This document shows, piece after piece, positions 1 to 5,897 of a DNA stretch of 5,897 nucleotides. Positions within the stretch are counted from its first letter, which is position 1. Each line of letters begins with the position of its first letter. The position numbers and the translations under genes are program-made. The stretch covers positions 1 through 5,897 of the forward strand of contig QJVU01000541.1 in the NCBI GenBank assembly GCA_003235605.1, in the 5' to 3' direction. The stretch is from Planctomycetota bacterium (GTDB lineage: Bacteria; Planctomycetota; UBA1135; UBA2386). The notes beneath the pieces are model-generated. The model was given only the letters and a program-made list of their open reading frames with translations, ran no database searches and was not told where the DNA came from.

Positions 1-1249
1 CCGTTCGCATGAACTTCTCCCGCTCCTTGTCGAGCTTGTCGTAGGCCTCCTGGAGCTTCTTTCTCTCATCCCGTGAGAGCGTCGTGCCAGCGGGGCGTTC
101 GAAAGCATCGCTCACTTCTGTCTGCTTCTTCTCCCATGCAGCGAGCTTGGTCAGGGTCGTTTTCTCATCGAGGCCCTTTGCGGGGTAGTTCACGGTCACG
201 GAATCGCCCACGAGGATGTCGAGCGTGCCGTCGCCGTTGATGTCGTCGACCCAGACGCGGGTGTCCGTCTGGGGTCCGGTGAGGTGTGCATCGCCCAGCT
301 TGGTCTTCCCGTCCCCATACCCAACCGCCGGAATCAGCGCCACCGGCTGGCTGAACTTGGCCTCCTTGGCCGAGCCCCGGTTGGTGCACAGGAACACGCC
401 TCCCACGGACGAGCCGCTGATCAGATCCAGGTCACCATCGCCGTCCCAGTCCACGAAGAAGGGGTCGCTGTGGCTCTGGACCATGAGCGGCCTGCCATCC
501 GCGGTCAACTGCGTCGGCATGGGAGCGAAACGGCCCTTGCCCTCTCCAGCGAAGACCCAGAAGGAGCCGGAGAAGTTGCCGGAAACGATGTCCAGCTTGC
601 CGTCGCCGTCCAGGTCCACGGCGGTGGGCCGGGTGCAGATCCGGTCGGTGATCGGCTCCTTGCCGGCCCCGAATGTCACTCCCCAGACCCTGGTCGGCTT
701 CTTGCGCCGCAAGATCAAGGGCTCGCCGTCCGTGCCCTTGAGGACCTCCGCCTTCTTGAAGGTCCCCTCCTCGGTCCCCCACAGGACCTGGAACAGACCC
801 GCCATGTCCCGGTCCATGCGGGAGTAGGATCCCGAGAGGATGTCTATGTTGCCGTCACCGTTGACGTCCACGAACTGTGGAGTCGAGCTGGTGCATCACC
901 AGACGCCGGGCACCTCGGCCACCTTGCCCTCGGCCTTCAACCACTCCCCCTTCGCGAGCTTGCCGTCCCCGAGGTTCCGGTAGACCTTCATCTTGCCATC
1001 GGCAAACTGACCCACGACCAGGTCCTTCCTGCCGTCGCGGTCTACGTCAGCCCAGCAGGGAGAGGCAAAACCGGGGTACTCGGTCTTGATGTACTCCCCG
1101 TCTGCCTGCAAGCGGACCGGAGCTTCGAACTGGGCTCGTTGGGCCCCTTGCGCCCCCTGACGGACGTGCGTGGCGGAGATCGGGGCGACGGTCACGCCCA
1201 CGGCGAGGCACGCCGGCAACGCCGTCGTTGCGAGGATGGTCTTCAGCAT
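1..1249 (-). CDS. Exported FG-GAP/VCBS repeat protein, candidate selenoprotein (in-frame TGA; C-terminus cut by window edge)
   Basis: Seen: the frame starts at ATG 1249 and runs to the left edge, 416 codons, with codon 118 a TGA (898-896) and 298 sense codons after it. Residues 1-26 form a signal peptide (LKT, a hydrophobic run, cleavage likely near PISA), so the protein should be exported. Acidic FG-GAP/VCBS motifs of the DxDxDG type, each followed by a D-[IL] strand, lie at residues 68-76, 128-136, 212-220, 267-275 and 335-344, on both sides of the TGA. Residues about 360-416 are charged and look helical, perhaps coiled coil. The start is supported by GGAGGG at 1263-1258, about 8 bases upstream. 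Known: such repeats form beta-propeller blades, often binding Ca2+, in surface or secreted proteins. Inferred: the TGA is read as selenocysteine, giving a Trp-Sec-Cys-Thr sequence before the second repeat. A nonsense mutation or base-call error would give the same picture. The enzymatic or binding role is unknown. Confidence 0.8.
856..893 (-). promoter_or_regulatory. SECIS-like hairpin just downstream of the in-frame TGA
   Basis: On the minus-strand mRNA, GACUCCAC (884-877) pairs with GUGGA (871-867) and GUC (865-863), with C866 bulged. This gives eight Watson-Crick pairs closing the loop AGUUC (876-872). A further outer helix, CACC (893-890) with GGUG (859-856), can form across an internal loop of 5 and 3 bases. 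The loop begins 19 nt after the TGA and has G in its second position. Known: bacterial SECIS elements lie inside the coding region directly after the UGA, have a small apical loop with a G in its first two positions, roughly 16-37 nt from the UGA, and recruit SelB. The fit is good by eye, but no folding energy was computed, and GC-rich coding sequence makes chance hairpins common. Confidence 0.55.
896..898 (-). other. In-frame TGA, candidate selenocysteine codon (residue 118)
   Basis: The codon follows Pro-Gly-Val-Trp (residues 114-117) and precedes TGC (Cys119). The same frame continues without any stop to the window edge and carries four more FG-GAP motifs, so there is no frameshift. TGA also ends the glycosyltransferase gene at 5363-5361, so it is a normal stop here and would need a local recoding signal. 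A single-base change from TGC or TGT (Cys) would explain both a Sec/Cys exchange in the family and a read error. Confidence 0.6.
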
Positions 1250-1440: not shown

Positions 1441-2007
1441 ATGCCCCCCAACGCATCCCACAGGCACGTCGCCTTCCTGCGAGGCATCAATGTCGGTGGC
1501 AGGAACAAGGTTCCGATGAAGAAGCTGGCGATGATGTTCGAGGAGGTCGGATGTACCGACGTGTCCACCTACATCCAGAGCGGCAACGTGGTCTTCACCG
1601 CCAGGAGCATGCTGGTCCGGAGGTTGCCGGAGTTGATCACCGGGGCTCTCCTGAAGGGGCTTGGCGTCAAGGTGCCCGTCGTCGTCCGCTCGGCGTCTGA
1701 GCTGAGCAACGTGCTCAACAACAACCCGTTCCTGCGCCGCGAGAGCGCCAAGCCGGAGCATCTCCACGTGGGGTTCCTGGCCACACTCCCGGCGCCGTCC
1801 CGGGTCTCGGCTCTGGACCCGACACGCAGCCCCGGCGATACCTTCGAGGTCCTGGGGCGGGAGATCCACCTCTGCTGTCCAGGCGGTATGGCACGCACGA
1901 AGCTCACCGTGACCTATTTCGACAGGGTCCTGGGCACCGTGACCACGGTACGCAACTGGCGCACTACACAGAAGCTCGCTGAGCTTTCCGGCGCGGCGTT
2001 CTGCTAG
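1441..2007 (+). CDS. DUF1697 family protein
   Basis: The 188-residue product matches the usual length and layout of DUF1697 proteins. Near the N-terminus it has the family signature: AFLRGINVGG (about residues 12-21), then K-V-P-M-K-K-L, and YIQSGNVVF (about 43-51). Near the C-terminus it has KLTVTYFDRVLGT followed by TVRNWRTTQKLAEL, equivalent to the family's conserved T-R-N-W-R-T segment. ATG 1441 puts the signature at the normal distance from the N-terminus; longer in-frame starts lie in the region upstream of the divergent gene and add sequence unlike the family. The ribosome binding site is poor (GTAGAG some way upstream). The protein has no signal peptide or membrane segment and should be cytoplasmic. 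The biochemical function of the family is not established, and the neighbours do not help. The gene ends in TAG. Confidence 0.9.
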   Translation: MPPNASHRHVAFLRGINVGGRNKVPMKKLAMMFEEVGCTDVSTYIQSGNVVFTARSMLVRRLPELITGALLKGLGVKVPVVVRSASELSNVLNNNPFLRRESAKPEHLHVGFLATLPAPSRVSALDPTRSPGDTFEVLGREIHLCCPGGMARTKLTVTYFDRVLGTVTTVRNWRTTQKLAELSGAAFC

Positions 2008-2088: not shown

Positions 2089-2691
2089 ATGTCCGCAGAA
2101 GTCGTCGTCCACGGTTTCGAAACCTCCAACAACATGAAGGTACGGGTGGCCCTGGGCTACAAGGGCATCCCCTACCGGTTCCACACCATCGAGCCCCACA
2201 ACCGGGAGGAGGTCGTGAAGATCTCTGGCCAGCACCTGACACCGGTGCTGGTGCACAAGGACCGCGTGGTCTTTGACTCCGCGGCGATCCTGCGCTACCT
2301 GGACGTGACGTTCCCGGAAACCGAGCGGTTGTTCGGACGCAGCCACGCCGAGCAGTGGGAGATCGAAGACTGGGAGCTGTTCGCCCGCGCCCAGCTCGCC
2401 GGTCCGATGATGGATGTGGTCCACCGCCGGGTGTACGGCAAGACCGTGGATGACACATTGCTGGATCGGTGTGCGACAGCCTTCGCCGGGGCGGTGGCAC
2501 GATTGGCGGAACGCATGGAGGGCCGGAAATGGCTCGTCGGGGGCACGATGTCGGCAGCCGACATCACAGCTGCCGCGGTGATGTTCCGCGTCCAGGCCGC
2601 GGCGATCCTCCCCCTTCCACCCGAAGCCGACGCCCTTTCCAATTGGATGCGCACGGTCATGGCTTTCGACGGCAAGTGCAGGACGGAGTAG
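2089..2691 (+). CDS. Glutathione S-transferase family protein
   Basis: The 200-residue product has the two-domain GST layout. Residues 4-75 are a thioredoxin-like domain: strand VVVHGF, helix start TSNNMKVRVALGYKGIPY (about 12-29), the cis-proline in LTPVL (50-54), and the DSAAI segment (63-67) that binds the gamma-glutamyl part of glutathione. Residues from about 85 on are the helical domain, with MSAADIT (154-160) as the conserved N-capping motif. There is no Cys where zeta- or beta-like classes have one (about residues 13-16); Ser13 or the Asn pair stand there. The enzyme would be cytoplasmic and would conjugate or reduce electrophilic or peroxide substrates with glutathione; the substrate cannot be told from sequence. 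It starts 81 bases after the DUF1697 stop on the same strand, so co-transcription is possible but not shown. Ends in TAG. Confidence 0.9.
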   Translation: MSAEVVVHGFETSNNMKVRVALGYKGIPYRFHTIEPHNREEVVKISGQHLTPVLVHKDRVVFDSAAILRYLDVTFPETERLFGRSHAEQWEIEDWELFARAQLAGPMMDVVHRRVYGKTVDDTLLDRCATAFAGAVARLAERMEGRKWLVGGTMSAADITAAAVMFRVQAAAILPLPPEADALSNWMRTVMAFDGKCRTE

Positions 2692-2829: not shown

Positions 2830-4482
2830 CTAGCTGCCTTCGCGACAGAAGCACGACCCCTTGATCTGCACCGTGGCGTCCGCCCAGGCTTTTTCGAACT
2901 GCTTGCGCACGGCAGCAGCCTCGGGGGAGTTGCGGCGCTCCAGGCACTCGGCGAGGCCGTGTAGGGACCAACCGTTGTCCGGGTACCGCTTCAGGTCCTG
3001 CCGGTAGCAGGCTTCCGCTTCGGCGACCTTACCGGACGACAACAGCAAAGCACCGAGTGCGTGGCGGGTGGGCATCATCCACGGGTTCGGTTCGCTGTAC
3101 TTCAGGTTGTCCTCCGCCGCAACAGCCGCACGGAGGTGCTCGAAGGCAGCGTCGTATTCACCCGCCTTGAAGGCAGTCTCGCCAAGGAGCAGCTCACGGG
3201 CCACCTGCAGGACCTCCTGAGCAGGGACTATGAACACCATTTGGTCCGCCGGCACCTGGGCGGCGGCCTTCTCGAAGGCAACTGCCTCGGCCCTGGCTTC
3301 CCCGATCCGTCTGAGGTTGGCATAGGCAACGCCGCGGCCGTAGTGCCACATGGCGACGGCATAGGGCTGATCTTCCCTGGGGCAGGGAACCTCGAGGGCC
3401 TTGATCCACTGGCCGAAGCGCAGGTGCACGTGCACGTCCATGACCAACCACTCGGCAACGCCGGGGTCGCTGAGGAAGGACTCGGGCAGATCCCGCATGA
3501 GGGCACGGCAGGCTTCCAGAGCCTCTTCGTAGCGGCCGCGGAACATCGCGGACCAGACGATGAAGTGGTTGTTGTGGGCGTGATAGGTGTGATAGATGCC
3601 CTGGGTACCCACCTTGGCAAAGTAGTCACGGTCCAGCTGTGAGGCCCTCTTGTTGCACTCCACCGAGTCCTTGAAGCGACCCACCTGCACATAGATGTGC
3701 GCCGGCATGTGCACCATGTGTCCAATACCAGGGACCAGCTTGCCCAGGCGATCCGCGGCGGCCTCGGCCTTGGCGGGCTCCGCAGAAGGCTCGATGACGT
3801 GGATGTAGAAGTGGTTGGCGCCCGGGTGGTTGGCGTCCAGCTCCAGAACCCGTTCCAGGGTGGCGACGATGGTCGGTGTATCGCCACGCTTGGGTTGGCG
3901 CACCTTGGTCCAGTAGTCCCAGGGGTGCAGGTTCATGAGGGCGTCCGCGTAGAGAACGCCGATGTCCCCGTCCTCCGGGTACTTCTGCCACAAGGCCGCC
4001 ATCGCGTCGGCGTAGGCCTGGTCCAGGTGCTCGCGGTCCTTGGGGGGTGGGTTCGCAAAACGTCTGGCCAGGGCCCCGATCAGATCCTGCTCCACCTGGG
4101 TGGCCCCGCCGGCATGCTGCTGCGCCTTCTGGATGGCCTCGAAGGCACGCTTGCCGGCCGCGGCGTCCATGGGCAGGTTGATGTTCGGCGCCAGGGCATA
4201 GGCCTGGCCCCAGTAGGCCATGGCACAGCCCGGGTCGATCCGTGCTGCCTCCTCGAACGAGCGCACTGCTTCGTCGTGGTTGAAACCAAAGCTGAGGGCA
4301 AGTCCCTGGTCGAAGTAGCGCTGCGCCAGGGGGTCCTTGGTCGTCACCTTGCGGCTGTGGCTGCCCATTCCGTCGAACAGCAGGGCGCGCGGGGTCGTGC
4401 ACCCCGCAACTAGAGCAGCGGCAGAGAGAGACAGAACGAGCTTGAGAGACTTGGGAGTGGCGGCAAACATGGCTTCAGACAT
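2830..4482 (-). CDS. TPR repeat lipoprotein with CxC tail
   Basis: The 550-residue product begins with a lipoprotein signal: a hydrophobic run, then lipobox L-V-A-G-C with Cys28 as the lipidation site, so it should be anchored in a membrane outside the cytoplasm. A TPR pair covers about residues 52-97 (YFDQGLALSFGFNHDEAVRS, then A-R-I-D-P). Further helical repeats run through the protein, and a C-terminal TPR lies at about 475-510 (ALGALLLSSGKVAEAEACYR). The middle has His-rich segments: NHFYIH (223-228), HMVHMPAH (255-262) and YHTYHAHNNH (297-306); similar His-Met-Pro-[AS]-His segments occur in TTC38-like TPR proteins. The protein ends with Cys544-Phe-Cys546 and four more residues. Inferred: a scaffold, possibly metal-binding; no reaction can be assigned. 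Met at 4482 is taken as start; Met5 at 4470 is an alternative, and neither has a strong ribosome binding site. Divergent from the FkbM gene; ends in TAG. Confidence 0.88.
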   Translation of the reverse strand: MSEAMFAATPKSLKLVLSLSAAALVAGCTTPRALLFDGMGSHSRKVTTKDPLAQRYFDQGLALSFGFNHDEAVRSFEEAARIDPGCAMAYWGQAYALAPNINLPMDAAAGKRAFEAIQKAQQHAGGATQVEQDLIGALARRFANPPPKDREHLDQAYADAMAALWQKYPEDGDIGVLYADALMNLHPWDYWTKVRQPKRGDTPTIVATLERVLELDANHPGANHFYIHVIEPSAEPAKAEAAADRLGKLVPGIGHMVHMPAHIYVQVGRFKDSVECNKRASQLDRDYFAKVGTQGIYHTYHAHNNHFIVWSAMFRGRYEEALEACRALMRDLPESFLSDPGVAEWLVMDVHVHLRFGQWIKALEVPCPREDQPYAVAMWHYGRGVAYANLRRIGEARAEAVAFEKAAAQVPADQMVFIVPAQEVLQVARELLLGETAFKAGEYDAAFEHLRAAVAAEDNLKYSEPNPWMMPTRHALGALLLSSGKVAEAEACYRQDLKRYPDNGWSLHGLAECLERRNSPEAAAVRKQFEKAWADATVQIKGSCFCREGS

Positions 4483-4558: not shown

Positions 4559-5350
4559 GTGAAGCTCTCGGACCTCTGGGACTACGTCGCCCTCCGACGC
4601 CTCGTCAAGAACCCCGGCAAGGTCGCCCTGTTCCGCAAGGACCGCAACCCCGACCACGAGCTCGTGGTCGAGATGCGCGATCAGCCCCCCCTCTACCTGC
4701 GAGGCGGTCGCAGCGACTTCCACATGTTCCAGCGCATCTTTCTGCGGGACGAATACCGGCTCGGAACGCTGCCGGCTGGCGGTCTTGGCTGCGTGGTGGA
4801 CCTGGGCGGCAACGTGGGGATGTTCGCGGCGCGTGTCGCACCGGAGGCACGGCGGGTCGTCAGCTGCGAGCCGCTCCCCGTCAACCTGGAGCGGCTTCAC
4901 AAGAACACCCGGGCCCTTGACAACATCACTACCGTGCCGGCGGCGGTCGCCGGACAGAGCGGCACCCTGACGCTCTACGCGCCGCGCTTGGACAAGATGA
5001 GCGGCGCGTTCTCGGCCTACGCCGACTCCGAACAGTTCAACCTGGACGTATCCTGGGAGGTGCCCGCCGTCACCCTTGCCGAGCTCTTCAACACCCACCG
5101 AGTGACCCACTGCGATCTCTTGAAAGTGGACATCGAAGGCTCGGAGTACGACGTCCTCCAGGCGACGGACGATCGCACCTTCAGTTGCATCGACCGGATC
5201 CACGGCGAATACCACAACGTCGGGCCCGAGAAGGCACGCAACCGCTGGGAGACGCTGGAGGCCCTGCTCCGATCCCAGGGCTACTCCGTGGACGTGACCC
5301 ACCATCGCCACAAGCCGAACTACGGCATGTTCTACGCCCGCCGGGTGTAG
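4559..5350 (+). CDS. FkbM family SAM-dependent methyltransferase
   Basis: With GTG 4559 as start the product has 263 residues, the usual size. Residues 78-90 (VVDLGGNVGMFA) are the glycine-rich SAM-binding motif I. CEP at 103-105 supplies the acidic residue that normally binds the SAM ribose. LLKVDIEGSEYDVL (187-200) is the signature that marks the FkbM type. The C-terminus (about 240-260) carries a His-rich strand region ending in YARRV. Known: FkbM enzymes O-methylate sugars or polyketides, often in polysaccharide clusters. The convergent neighbouring glycosyltransferase fits a role in surface glycan modification. The start is uncertain: there is no clear Shine-Dalgarno sequence, and an in-frame ATG at 4469 would add 30 residues but overlap the divergent TPR gene start. 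Ends in TAG, 10 bases from the convergent gene's stop. Confidence 0.88.
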   Translation: MKLSDLWDYVALRRLVKNPGKVALFRKDRNPDHELVVEMRDQPPLYLRGGRSDFHMFQRIFLRDEYRLGTLPAGGLGCVVDLGGNVGMFAARVAPEARRVVSCEPLPVNLERLHKNTRALDNITTVPAAVAGQSGTLTLYAPRLDKMSGAFSAYADSEQFNLDVSWEVPAVTLAELFNTHRVTHCDLLKVDIEGSEYDVLQATDDRTFSCIDRIHGEYHNVGPEKARNRWETLEALLRSQGYSVDVTHHRHKPNYGMFYARRV

Positions 5351-5353
5351 CTG

Positions 5354-5368
5354 CCGCCGCTCAGGCGG
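5354..5368. terminator. Short hairpin at the convergent FkbM / glycosyltransferase ends
   Basis: CCGCC (5354-5358) and GGCGG (5364-5368) form a 5-bp stem around GCTCA, starting 4 bases after the FkbM stop and covering the glycosyltransferase stop. It could serve both strands, but there is no T-run and the stem is short. Confidence 0.3.
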
Positions 5369-5897
5369 ACACCAGACCGTTCTTGCAGCGGATCGGTCGC
5401 CGCATCCTGTAGTACGTCTCGTTGTCCCTGCGACCCACCGACTTCATCGGGTGCCACATGTGGAACACGTCGTTCCGCGTATAGAGCACCTTCACCTTCG
5501 GCCTCGGTCGCAGGCGCATCAGCCGATCCCGGAGATCGCTGTCCTCGCCTTGATAGGGCCACCGGAACACCTCATCGAAGCCGTTGATCTCCTCGAACAG
5601 GTCCCGGTCGACAGCCATGTTGAGGCCGATGGTCTTGGGACGGTTCTTGCGCCGGAGCAAGGTGCCCCACTCGCTCTTGCGCTTGAACCGCCGGAGCCAC
5701 TTGCGTTGCCATGGCTCGATGAAGGACTCAAAGGCGCCGGACTCGACATCCTCCTCGGTGAGCAGCTCGGTGACTTCCCGGCTCCAGCGCACCGGGCCGC
5801 CGACGTGGAAGCTACGCGGCTCGAAAACCCCGAGATGGCGTTCCACGAAGTGCGCTGGGGGAATGCAGTCGCCGTCGCTGAAGATCAGCAGGCGCTC
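5361..5897 (-). CDS. Family 2 glycosyltransferase (N-terminus cut by window edge)
   Basis: The frame is open to the right edge, giving the last 178 residues. At visible residues 4-14 (LIFSDGDCIPP) lies the metal- and nucleotide-sugar-binding DxD motif of GT-A fold enzymes. At 91-122 is the galactosyltransferase-type C-terminal motif: GLNMAVDRDLFEEINGFDE followed by W-P-Y-Q-G-E-D-S-D-L, where the ED pair provides the likely catalytic base. A WHP segment follows at 148-150. Known: such enzymes transfer a sugar from a nucleotide sugar to a growing glycan at the cytoplasmic face of the membrane. The missing part should be the first roughly 80-100 residues of the Rossmann-like half. A GTG at 5846 is internal, not the start, because it lies after the DxD motif. 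Ends in TGA, which shows that TGA works as a normal stop here. Works presumably with the adjacent FkbM methyltransferase on surface polysaccharide. Confidence 0.88.
   Translation of the reverse strand, partial: ERLLIFSDGDCIPPAHFVERHLGVFEPRSFHVGGPVRWSREVTELLTEEDVESGAFESFIEPWQRKWLRRFKRKSEWGTLLRRKNRPKTIGLNMAVDRDLFEEINGFDEVFRWPYQGEDSDLRDRLMRLRPRPKVKVLYTRNDVFHMWHPMKSVGRRDNETYYRMRRPIRCKNGLVSA

Follow-up and report, generated by a model that had tools for sequence, protein, structure and literature searches.

A predicted FG-GAP propeller selenoprotein family with a Sec-Cys pair and a SECIS-like hairpin in Planctomycetota and related phyla

Introduction

FG-GAP propellers are mostly binding proteins, and vicinal thiols are able to bind soft metals. 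A vicinal Cys-Cys ring is found in the propeller enzyme PQQ methanol dehydrogenase. Prokaryotic selenoproteins, for their part, are grouped into 119 families or subfamilies in Table 1 of a 2026 review, whose text states that most of the characterised ones have a thioredoxin-like fold (PMC13188914). Neither this Table 1 nor the main text of the review names an FG-GAP, VCBS or propeller family. The model of the bacterial SECIS element (bSECIS) given there is a hairpin with an apical loop of 3-9 nt and an upper stem of 4-16 pairs, which has a G among the first two nucleotides of the loop and lies 16-37 nt from the UGA (PMC13188914).

Here, we analyze a window of 5,897 nucleotides (the whole stretch of contig QJVU01000541.1, from a Planctomycetota bacterium), in which a sequence-only reading had noticed a TGA codon inside an FG-GAP repeat gene and proposed a selenoprotein of a new family. 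We conclude that this gene very probably codes for an exported selenoprotein, i.e., a propeller with five FG-GAP motifs and selenocysteine (Sec) at residue 118.

The window gene and its in-frame UGA

The predicted FG-GAP propeller selenoprotein gene lies at positions 1..1249 of the minus strand, with its ATG start at 1249..1247 and its 3' end beyond the window edge. From this ATG, the frame extends over 416 positions to the edge (base 2), and its single stop is a TGA. Read-through translation confirmed what had been described from the letters: one TGA at codon 118 (896..898, minus strand), a frame open on both sides and 298 codons after it, the first of which codes for Cys119 (TGC, 893..895, minus strand). 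The preceding codon is that of Trp117 (TGG). The predicted selenocysteine is supported by the TGA/Cys pattern in relatives, and Cys119, conserved in the family alignment, is its vicinal partner. Aligned relatives stop about 12-20 residues beyond the window edge (e.g., ...TGFVWLLLQK). The hydrophobic N-terminus, approximately residues 1-26 (1172..1249, minus strand, boundary placed by eye), is a probable signal peptide, and signal-like N-terminal stretches are also seen by eye in relatives.

The FG-GAP motifs reported on both sides of the TGA were recovered as well. The read-through protein matches Pfam FG-GAP_3 (PF13517) with an E value of 7.1e-28 and 97.4 bits, against a cut-off of 26.9, and DxDxDG motifs are located at residues 68, 128, 212, 267 and 336, one before the UGA and four after it. 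On the minus strand, the metal-binding-type motif 1 (DVDRDGRKD, 1022..1048) is upstream of the UGA; motif 2 (DVNGDGNID, 842..868) is directly downstream, its first two bases overlapping the 3' arm of the predicted hairpin described below; and motifs 3 (DLDGDGKLD), 4 (DWDGDGDLD) and 5 (DINGDGTLD) follow at 590..616, 425..451 and 218..244, respectively. Only FG-GAP models exceeded the Pfam cut-off on the window protein, with no match to a thioredoxin fold, to SBP56/methanethiol oxidase or to a glycosidase. Weak Pfam rows for TcdB_toxin_midN, in the window protein and in relatives, were taken as FG-GAP-like repeats and given no toxin reading.

UGA or Cys at the site across relatives

A lone TGA inside an otherwise open frame looks like a sequencing error or the mark of a pseudogene. 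However, 66 other distinct genes, drawn from many assemblies, have the identical codon, which refutes this explanation for the family and leaves it a negligible probability for the window itself. Indeed, in a scan of GTDB contigs, TGA followed by Cys was found at the aligned codon of all 13 loci, which come from named MAGs whose titles refer to Planctomycetota, Verrucomicrobia(les), Lentisphaerales and Phycisphaerae. By protein similarity, 70 distinct genes were collected, window included, and 67 carry TGA and three Cys at the site; the other genes of this set are 28-59% identical to the window. One more TGA carrier, L012, was kept outside the set, its match starting at the site. In a sample of 294 Planctomycetota genomes, 63 match rows were obtained in 50 genomes: 56 contain exactly one TGA and seven no stop, and TAA or TAG occurs in none. 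The seven rows without TGA are three full Cys-Cys copies (G199, G192 and G249) and four pieces wholly 3' of the site. The loci fetched from this sample show TGA-Cys at the site (L035 among them), except for the three uninterrupted Cys-Cys copies. Among 240 genomes sampled from the phylum to which G009 belongs, G009 was the only carrier. One locus, L074 (G166:C1:2881653-2884022), contains two adjacent FG-GAP genes, each with UGA-Cys and the hairpin.

In protein databases, the window protein has 4093 homologues at E up to 1e-3. Among the best 120 of these 4093, six span the site: five of them have Cys-Cys, and the close relative P0010 has Glu-Cys in place of Sec-Cys. For a member of another subfamily, L078, 57 of the 120 matches listed cover the site: 55 have Cys, one Ser (P0357) and one, a distant homologue, Ala (P0358). 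The sequence-only reading had pointed to Cys or further TGA at position 118 of homologues as the sign of selenocysteine, and this is what the alignments give, the few exceptions being the Glu, Ser and Ala just mentioned.

The second position of the pair is also well conserved. Of 118 family members aligned, 114 have Cys119 (P0248 was left out, and the residue at the Sec site was replaced by X, so that this alignment yields no conservation value for the Sec site), and it is invariant in the 19-row alignment A1, made of the window, 12 loci and 6 homologues. Nevertheless, in five of the 55 Cys forms listed for L078 (P0336, P0338, P0339, P0351 and P0362), the first Cys is kept at the Sec position and the second is replaced by His or Arg; the vicinal pair is thus not universal. 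Around the site, three subfamily types can be distinguished, i.e., W-U-C-T-S-S-T-P for the window, W-U-C-I-G-M (e.g., L065) and U-C-I-S/C-F (e.g., L078). On a quick tree of 119 rows, at least 11 switches between Sec and Cys are counted, and the starred branches alone force 6-7 (P0248 being scored as Cys in the first count and as "other" in the second). The 32 uninterrupted homologues of this tree were hand-picked from those listed; L037 and L077 were omitted for length, and P0255 was dropped.

A conserved SECIS-like hairpin downstream of the UGA

The sequence-only reading did not mention a SECIS-like hairpin; we found one 3' of the UGA. The predicted bacterial SECIS hairpin (867..881, minus strand) has the stem UCCAC/GUGGA and the apical loop AGUUC (872..876, minus strand), which has a G at its second position and lies 19 nt from the UGA. 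Its 5-nt loop, five pairs, G at position 2 and 19-nt distance all fall within the bSECIS constraints as the review words them (PMC13188914). An Rfam scan of the window, with E up to 1, returned no match and no SECIS match.

Directly 3' of the UGA, all 67 TGA genes contain complementary stretches of the form UCCAC-AGUUC-GUGGA or a variant of it. We compared them with 500 synonymous-codon simulations, in which codons for the same amino acids were drawn from the pooled usage of the TGA genes. The inner four pairs form in 67 of 67 genes, whereas the simulations average 13.8 and never exceed 24; all five pairs form in 62 of 67, against a simulated average of 1.6 and a highest value of 6. The outermost pair is missing in the five remaining hairpins. 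When the 3' arm was slid by 1-6 bases either way, pairing was left in only 0-2 of the 67. A G is present within the first two loop positions in 65 of 67 hairpins and absent in two.

The codons concerned change together. The Pro codon of the hairpin is CCA in 51 of the 58 cases with Pro, vs. 10% of the Pro codons elsewhere in the same genes. The codon pairs observed are CCA-GTG (51 genes), CCG-GCG (7), TCA-GTG (7), CTG-GCA (1) and CTG-GTG (1): every CCA goes with the Val codon GTG (51/51), every CCG with the Ala codon GCG (7/7) and every TCA with GTG (7/7). Hence, pairing is kept even through an amino-acid change. On the tree, one of the hairpin pairs underwent at least four changes between the A-U and G-C types. 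The pairing codons are absent from the three Cys genes (3/3). Compared with synonymous shuffles, 58 of 67 segments fold better and nine do not (mean z of -1.7), and in some genes the full 45-nt stretch has an optimal fold other than the hairpin. A degenerate pattern combining the UGA and the hairpin gave 53 matches in 47 of the 294 genomes, against none for the reversed pattern. Twenty of these 53 matches were inspected by eye, and each shows FG-GAP motifs in frame (L077 is incomplete); Pfam was run on three of them, and the 20, having been chosen by their hairpin, were excluded from the hairpin statistics.

These data bear on the possibility that the UGA terminates translation and that the downstream frame is a second protein produced by re-initiation, for instance at the GTG located 24 nt after the UGA. 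Public gene calls agree with such a scheme. Of the best 120 window homologues listed, out of 4093, 114 are proteins of 239-371 aa lacking the region before the UGA, and most of those 114 take as their start one of the earliest start codons available downstream of it. Likewise, none of the 120 matches listed for L065 shows the site (they cover 74-77% of the query), and 63 of the 120 listed for L078 begin after it. Moreover, the GTG exists in 59 of 67 genes. On the contrary, in the other eight it is replaced by GCG or GCA and its pairing codon has changed as well; the frame 5' of the UGA codes for an FG-GAP motif conserved along with the rest; and uninterrupted homologues have Cys at the UGA position. 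Re-initiation is therefore a very improbable account of this gene, and we retain the reading of the UGA as a sense codon.

Selenocysteine machinery in carrier genomes

We then consider which amino acid the UGA would specify. It could be translated as another residue, either Trp by a UGA-decoding tRNA or whichever results from low-level readthrough, which would also yield the full chain; Trp, besides, often precedes the UGA. However, uninterrupted homologues have Cys and not Trp at this position (55 of the 57 listed for L078 that cover it, and all three full copies), and UGA is the final stop of 21 of 62 TGA genes of the family, so that the code is not reassigned. The conserved hairpin also argues against this reading, as does the distribution of SelA, which was detected in 62 of the 64 sampled Planctomycetota genomes carrying the UGA gene and in 131 of the 230 others (Fisher p 3e-11, uncorrected for kinship). 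Insertion of another amino acid is thus exceedingly improbable, and selenocysteine remains the preferred assignment.

The 64 carriers are the genomes in which the UGA gene was found by protein or by pattern, G158 being counted on L075 and the pattern. In total, 193 of the 294 sampled genomes have SelA, 191 of them over cut-off; Sec genes are thus common in the phylum anyway. The two carriers without SelA are G184, which has SelB over cut-off, and G223, in which none of tRNA-Sec, SelA and SelB was over cut-off and whose assembly gave one elongation-factor match only. SelA, SelB or tRNA-Sec is hence present in 63 of 64 sampled carriers. The tRNA-Sec model of Rfam exceeded its cut-off in 195 of 294 genomes, i.e., 58 of 64 carriers vs. 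137 of 230 others (p 6e-7), and, once weak matches were dropped (13 genomes with a best match of E > ~1e-10, from a list made by hand), in 57 of 64 vs. 125 of 230 (p 8e-8). Five carriers without tRNA-Sec (G043, G234, G076, G191 and G184) have SelA, SelB or both. In the first 13 carrier genomes, tRNA-Sec was over cut-off in 12 and SelB was present in the thirteenth (G012, where tRNA-Sec and SelA were not over cut-off); G002, G006 and G007 have tRNA-Sec, with SelB not over cut-off.

Among 14 named control genomes, the SelA model matched E. coli alone and the tRNA-Sec model exceeded its cut-off in five, some of which we do not take to be Sec users. The tRNA-Sec counts may therefore include false positives, and SelA is the cleaner marker. 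Several genomes (G044, G133 and G217 among others) have two or three tRNA-Sec matches, with E up to 1e-8, which could reflect true duplication, redundancy in the assembly or spurious hits. As for the genomes carrying the Cys form, tRNA-Sec, SelA and SelB are all below cut-off or absent in G192 and G249, and G199 has the Cys form despite possessing all three.

Altogether, the proposal that residue 118 is selenocysteine gains support from TGA in 67 and Cys in three of 70 genes, from a covarying hairpin and from Sec machinery in the genomes of relatives. The sequence support is strong, and UGA codon 118 is almost certainly a selenocysteine codon. Its decoding would be performed by SelB and Sec-tRNA, directed by the hairpin whose loop is 19 nt downstream.

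Predicted fold and location of the Sec-Cys site

AlphaFold models a homologue of L001 as a propeller that carries five FG-GAP motifs (pLDDT 93.9). The Sec118-Cys119 site belongs to the loop entering the first strand after the blade of motif 1. In the matching loops of the other blades, P, TRP, DP and R are invariant within the window's subfamily, though they are not in the set conserved at 80% across all subfamilies. Because these loops hold subfamily-invariant residues, we infer, by loop correspondence, that the pair would be located at the central pocket.

Among the top Foldseek matches of the modelled homologue are lectins and integrins, and one redox propeller, PQQ sugar dehydrogenase, appears among the matches listed, at rank 37. 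No redox propeller was recognised among the VIA structural matches listed. A type of propeller missing from either list is not thereby ruled out.

Domain fusions, neighbourhood and possible function

Four long relatives (L044, L078, L079 and L080), picked by eye for a domain scan, all have DsbD_N over cut-off, each with a C-x4-C-[LM]-P motif. L080 adds an AhpC-TSA domain with a second in-frame UGA in the context TPG-UGA-T. This second TGA (1489..1487 of G207:C7, minus strand) is followed by a strong hairpin, and L080 is a probable double selenoprotein. Among the 120 matches listed for L078, 55 contain PF11412 and four PF00578. For members without a fusion, the window protein among them, these fusions carry little evidential weight.

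As for the neighbourhood, the ORFs of the window and of 30 loci (of which 17 had only ~1.5 kb of flank) were compared all against all, and no neighbour was common to more than two or three loci, so that gene context says nothing on function. In the window, the other genes are those of a DUF1697 protein (1441-2007, plus strand, Pfam 135.5 bits); a glutathione S-transferase-like protein (2089-2691, plus strand); a TPR-repeat protein of 550 aa, by eye a probable exported lipoprotein (2830-4482, minus strand); an FkbM-type methyltransferase (4559-5350, plus strand, Pfam); and a glycosyltransferase (Glyco_transf_7C in Pfam), cut by the window edge (5361-5897, minus strand). ARAGORN detected no tRNA in the window.

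Judging from these sequences, the window protein would most likely be an extracytoplasmic Sec-Cys redox enzyme. Sec118 would be the attacking nucleophile of a thiol/selenol oxidoreductase or peroxidase, and the adjacent Cys119 would resolve it as a vicinal selenylsulfide; that the two residues form a vicinal redox pair is likely. Electrons would come back by way of a DsbD-type domain, present on the same chain in some members; this recycling route is somewhat less likely than not. The pair could also bind a soft metal or constitute a fixed structural link, the selenoprotein then having no redox turnover. The affinity of vicinal thiols for soft metals, the mostly binding role of FG-GAP propellers and the lectins and integrins among the top Foldseek matches would suit such a function, which the relatives fused to DsbD_N and peroxiredoxin make rather unlikely. 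Moreover, the loss of the second Cys with retention of the first, in five of 55 Cys forms, is more in keeping with a catalytic nucleophile than with a ligand made of two thiols. We thus favor the redox enzyme. More broadly, there is perhaps an even chance that these proteins constitute a class of beta-propeller selenoenzymes in Planctomycetota, Verrucomicrobiota and Lentisphaerota, secreted, comprising at least three subfamilies, performing Sec-Cys redox chemistry at a central pocket and re-reduced by a DsbD-type system.

Significance

These results have several consequences. In public gene calls, the listed relatives are largely cut off at the UGA, which represents a systematic annotation error. 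The published list of prokaryotic selenoproteins would gain a fold that it did not include, in a phylum in which 193 of the 294 genomes sampled possess SelA. In the hairpin, changes from Val to Ala go along with changes in the Pro codon that pairs there, a clear example from nature of how an RNA signal can constrain a protein sequence. Finally, the fusions to DsbD_N and, once, to a peroxiredoxin with a second UGA provide a testable route to function.

Comparison with known systems

Neither the table of the review nor NCBIfam nor the open literature searched contradicts the proposal of a new family. No NCBIfam model was over cut-off for the four members scanned (P0001, P0009, P0011 and P0072), and no FG-GAP selenoprotein was found among 5.39 million open papers, although very recent work could mention the family and priority is not certain. 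The one paper found to mention both selenoproteins and VCBS repeats is on Mycobacterium abscessus, and five papers since 2021 that mention selenocysteine and Planctomycetota deal, by their titles, with other subjects. FG-GAP and VCBS do not appear in the main text of deep-Sep (PMC12013277) or of another review (PMC9312934), nor in that of a study reporting putative selenoproteins in two planctomycete genomes (PMC4807772). The family is apparently a large and undescribed one, whose fold the published selenoprotein list lacks.

With the known bacterial selenoproteins, the window family shares the UGA with Cys homologues, the bSECIS-type hairpin and the Sec machinery in the genomes of relatives; unlike it, the families in the published table and main text include no FG-GAP or propeller member. 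The DsbD N-terminal domain (PF11412) and AhpC/TSA (PF00578) are fused to the chain in relatives, and neither is found in the part of the window protein that the window contains. GH43/GH62 glycosidases (5b6s, 4n2z and 3qee), which we take to be five-bladed propellers, match the modelled homologue in fold, the best at 10% identity; the comparison is one of fold, and fold likeness shows no function. PQQ methanol dehydrogenase is alike in having a vicinal pair in a propeller, and differs by its larger PQQ propeller and by a pair made of sulfur only; this resemblance is a lead, not a test. To the FG-GAP/VCBS repeat proteins (PF13517, PF01839), the window protein is alike in its five motifs and its Pfam match, the modelled homologue adopting the propeller fold; it differs from them by the predicted U-C dipeptide that follows its first repeat.
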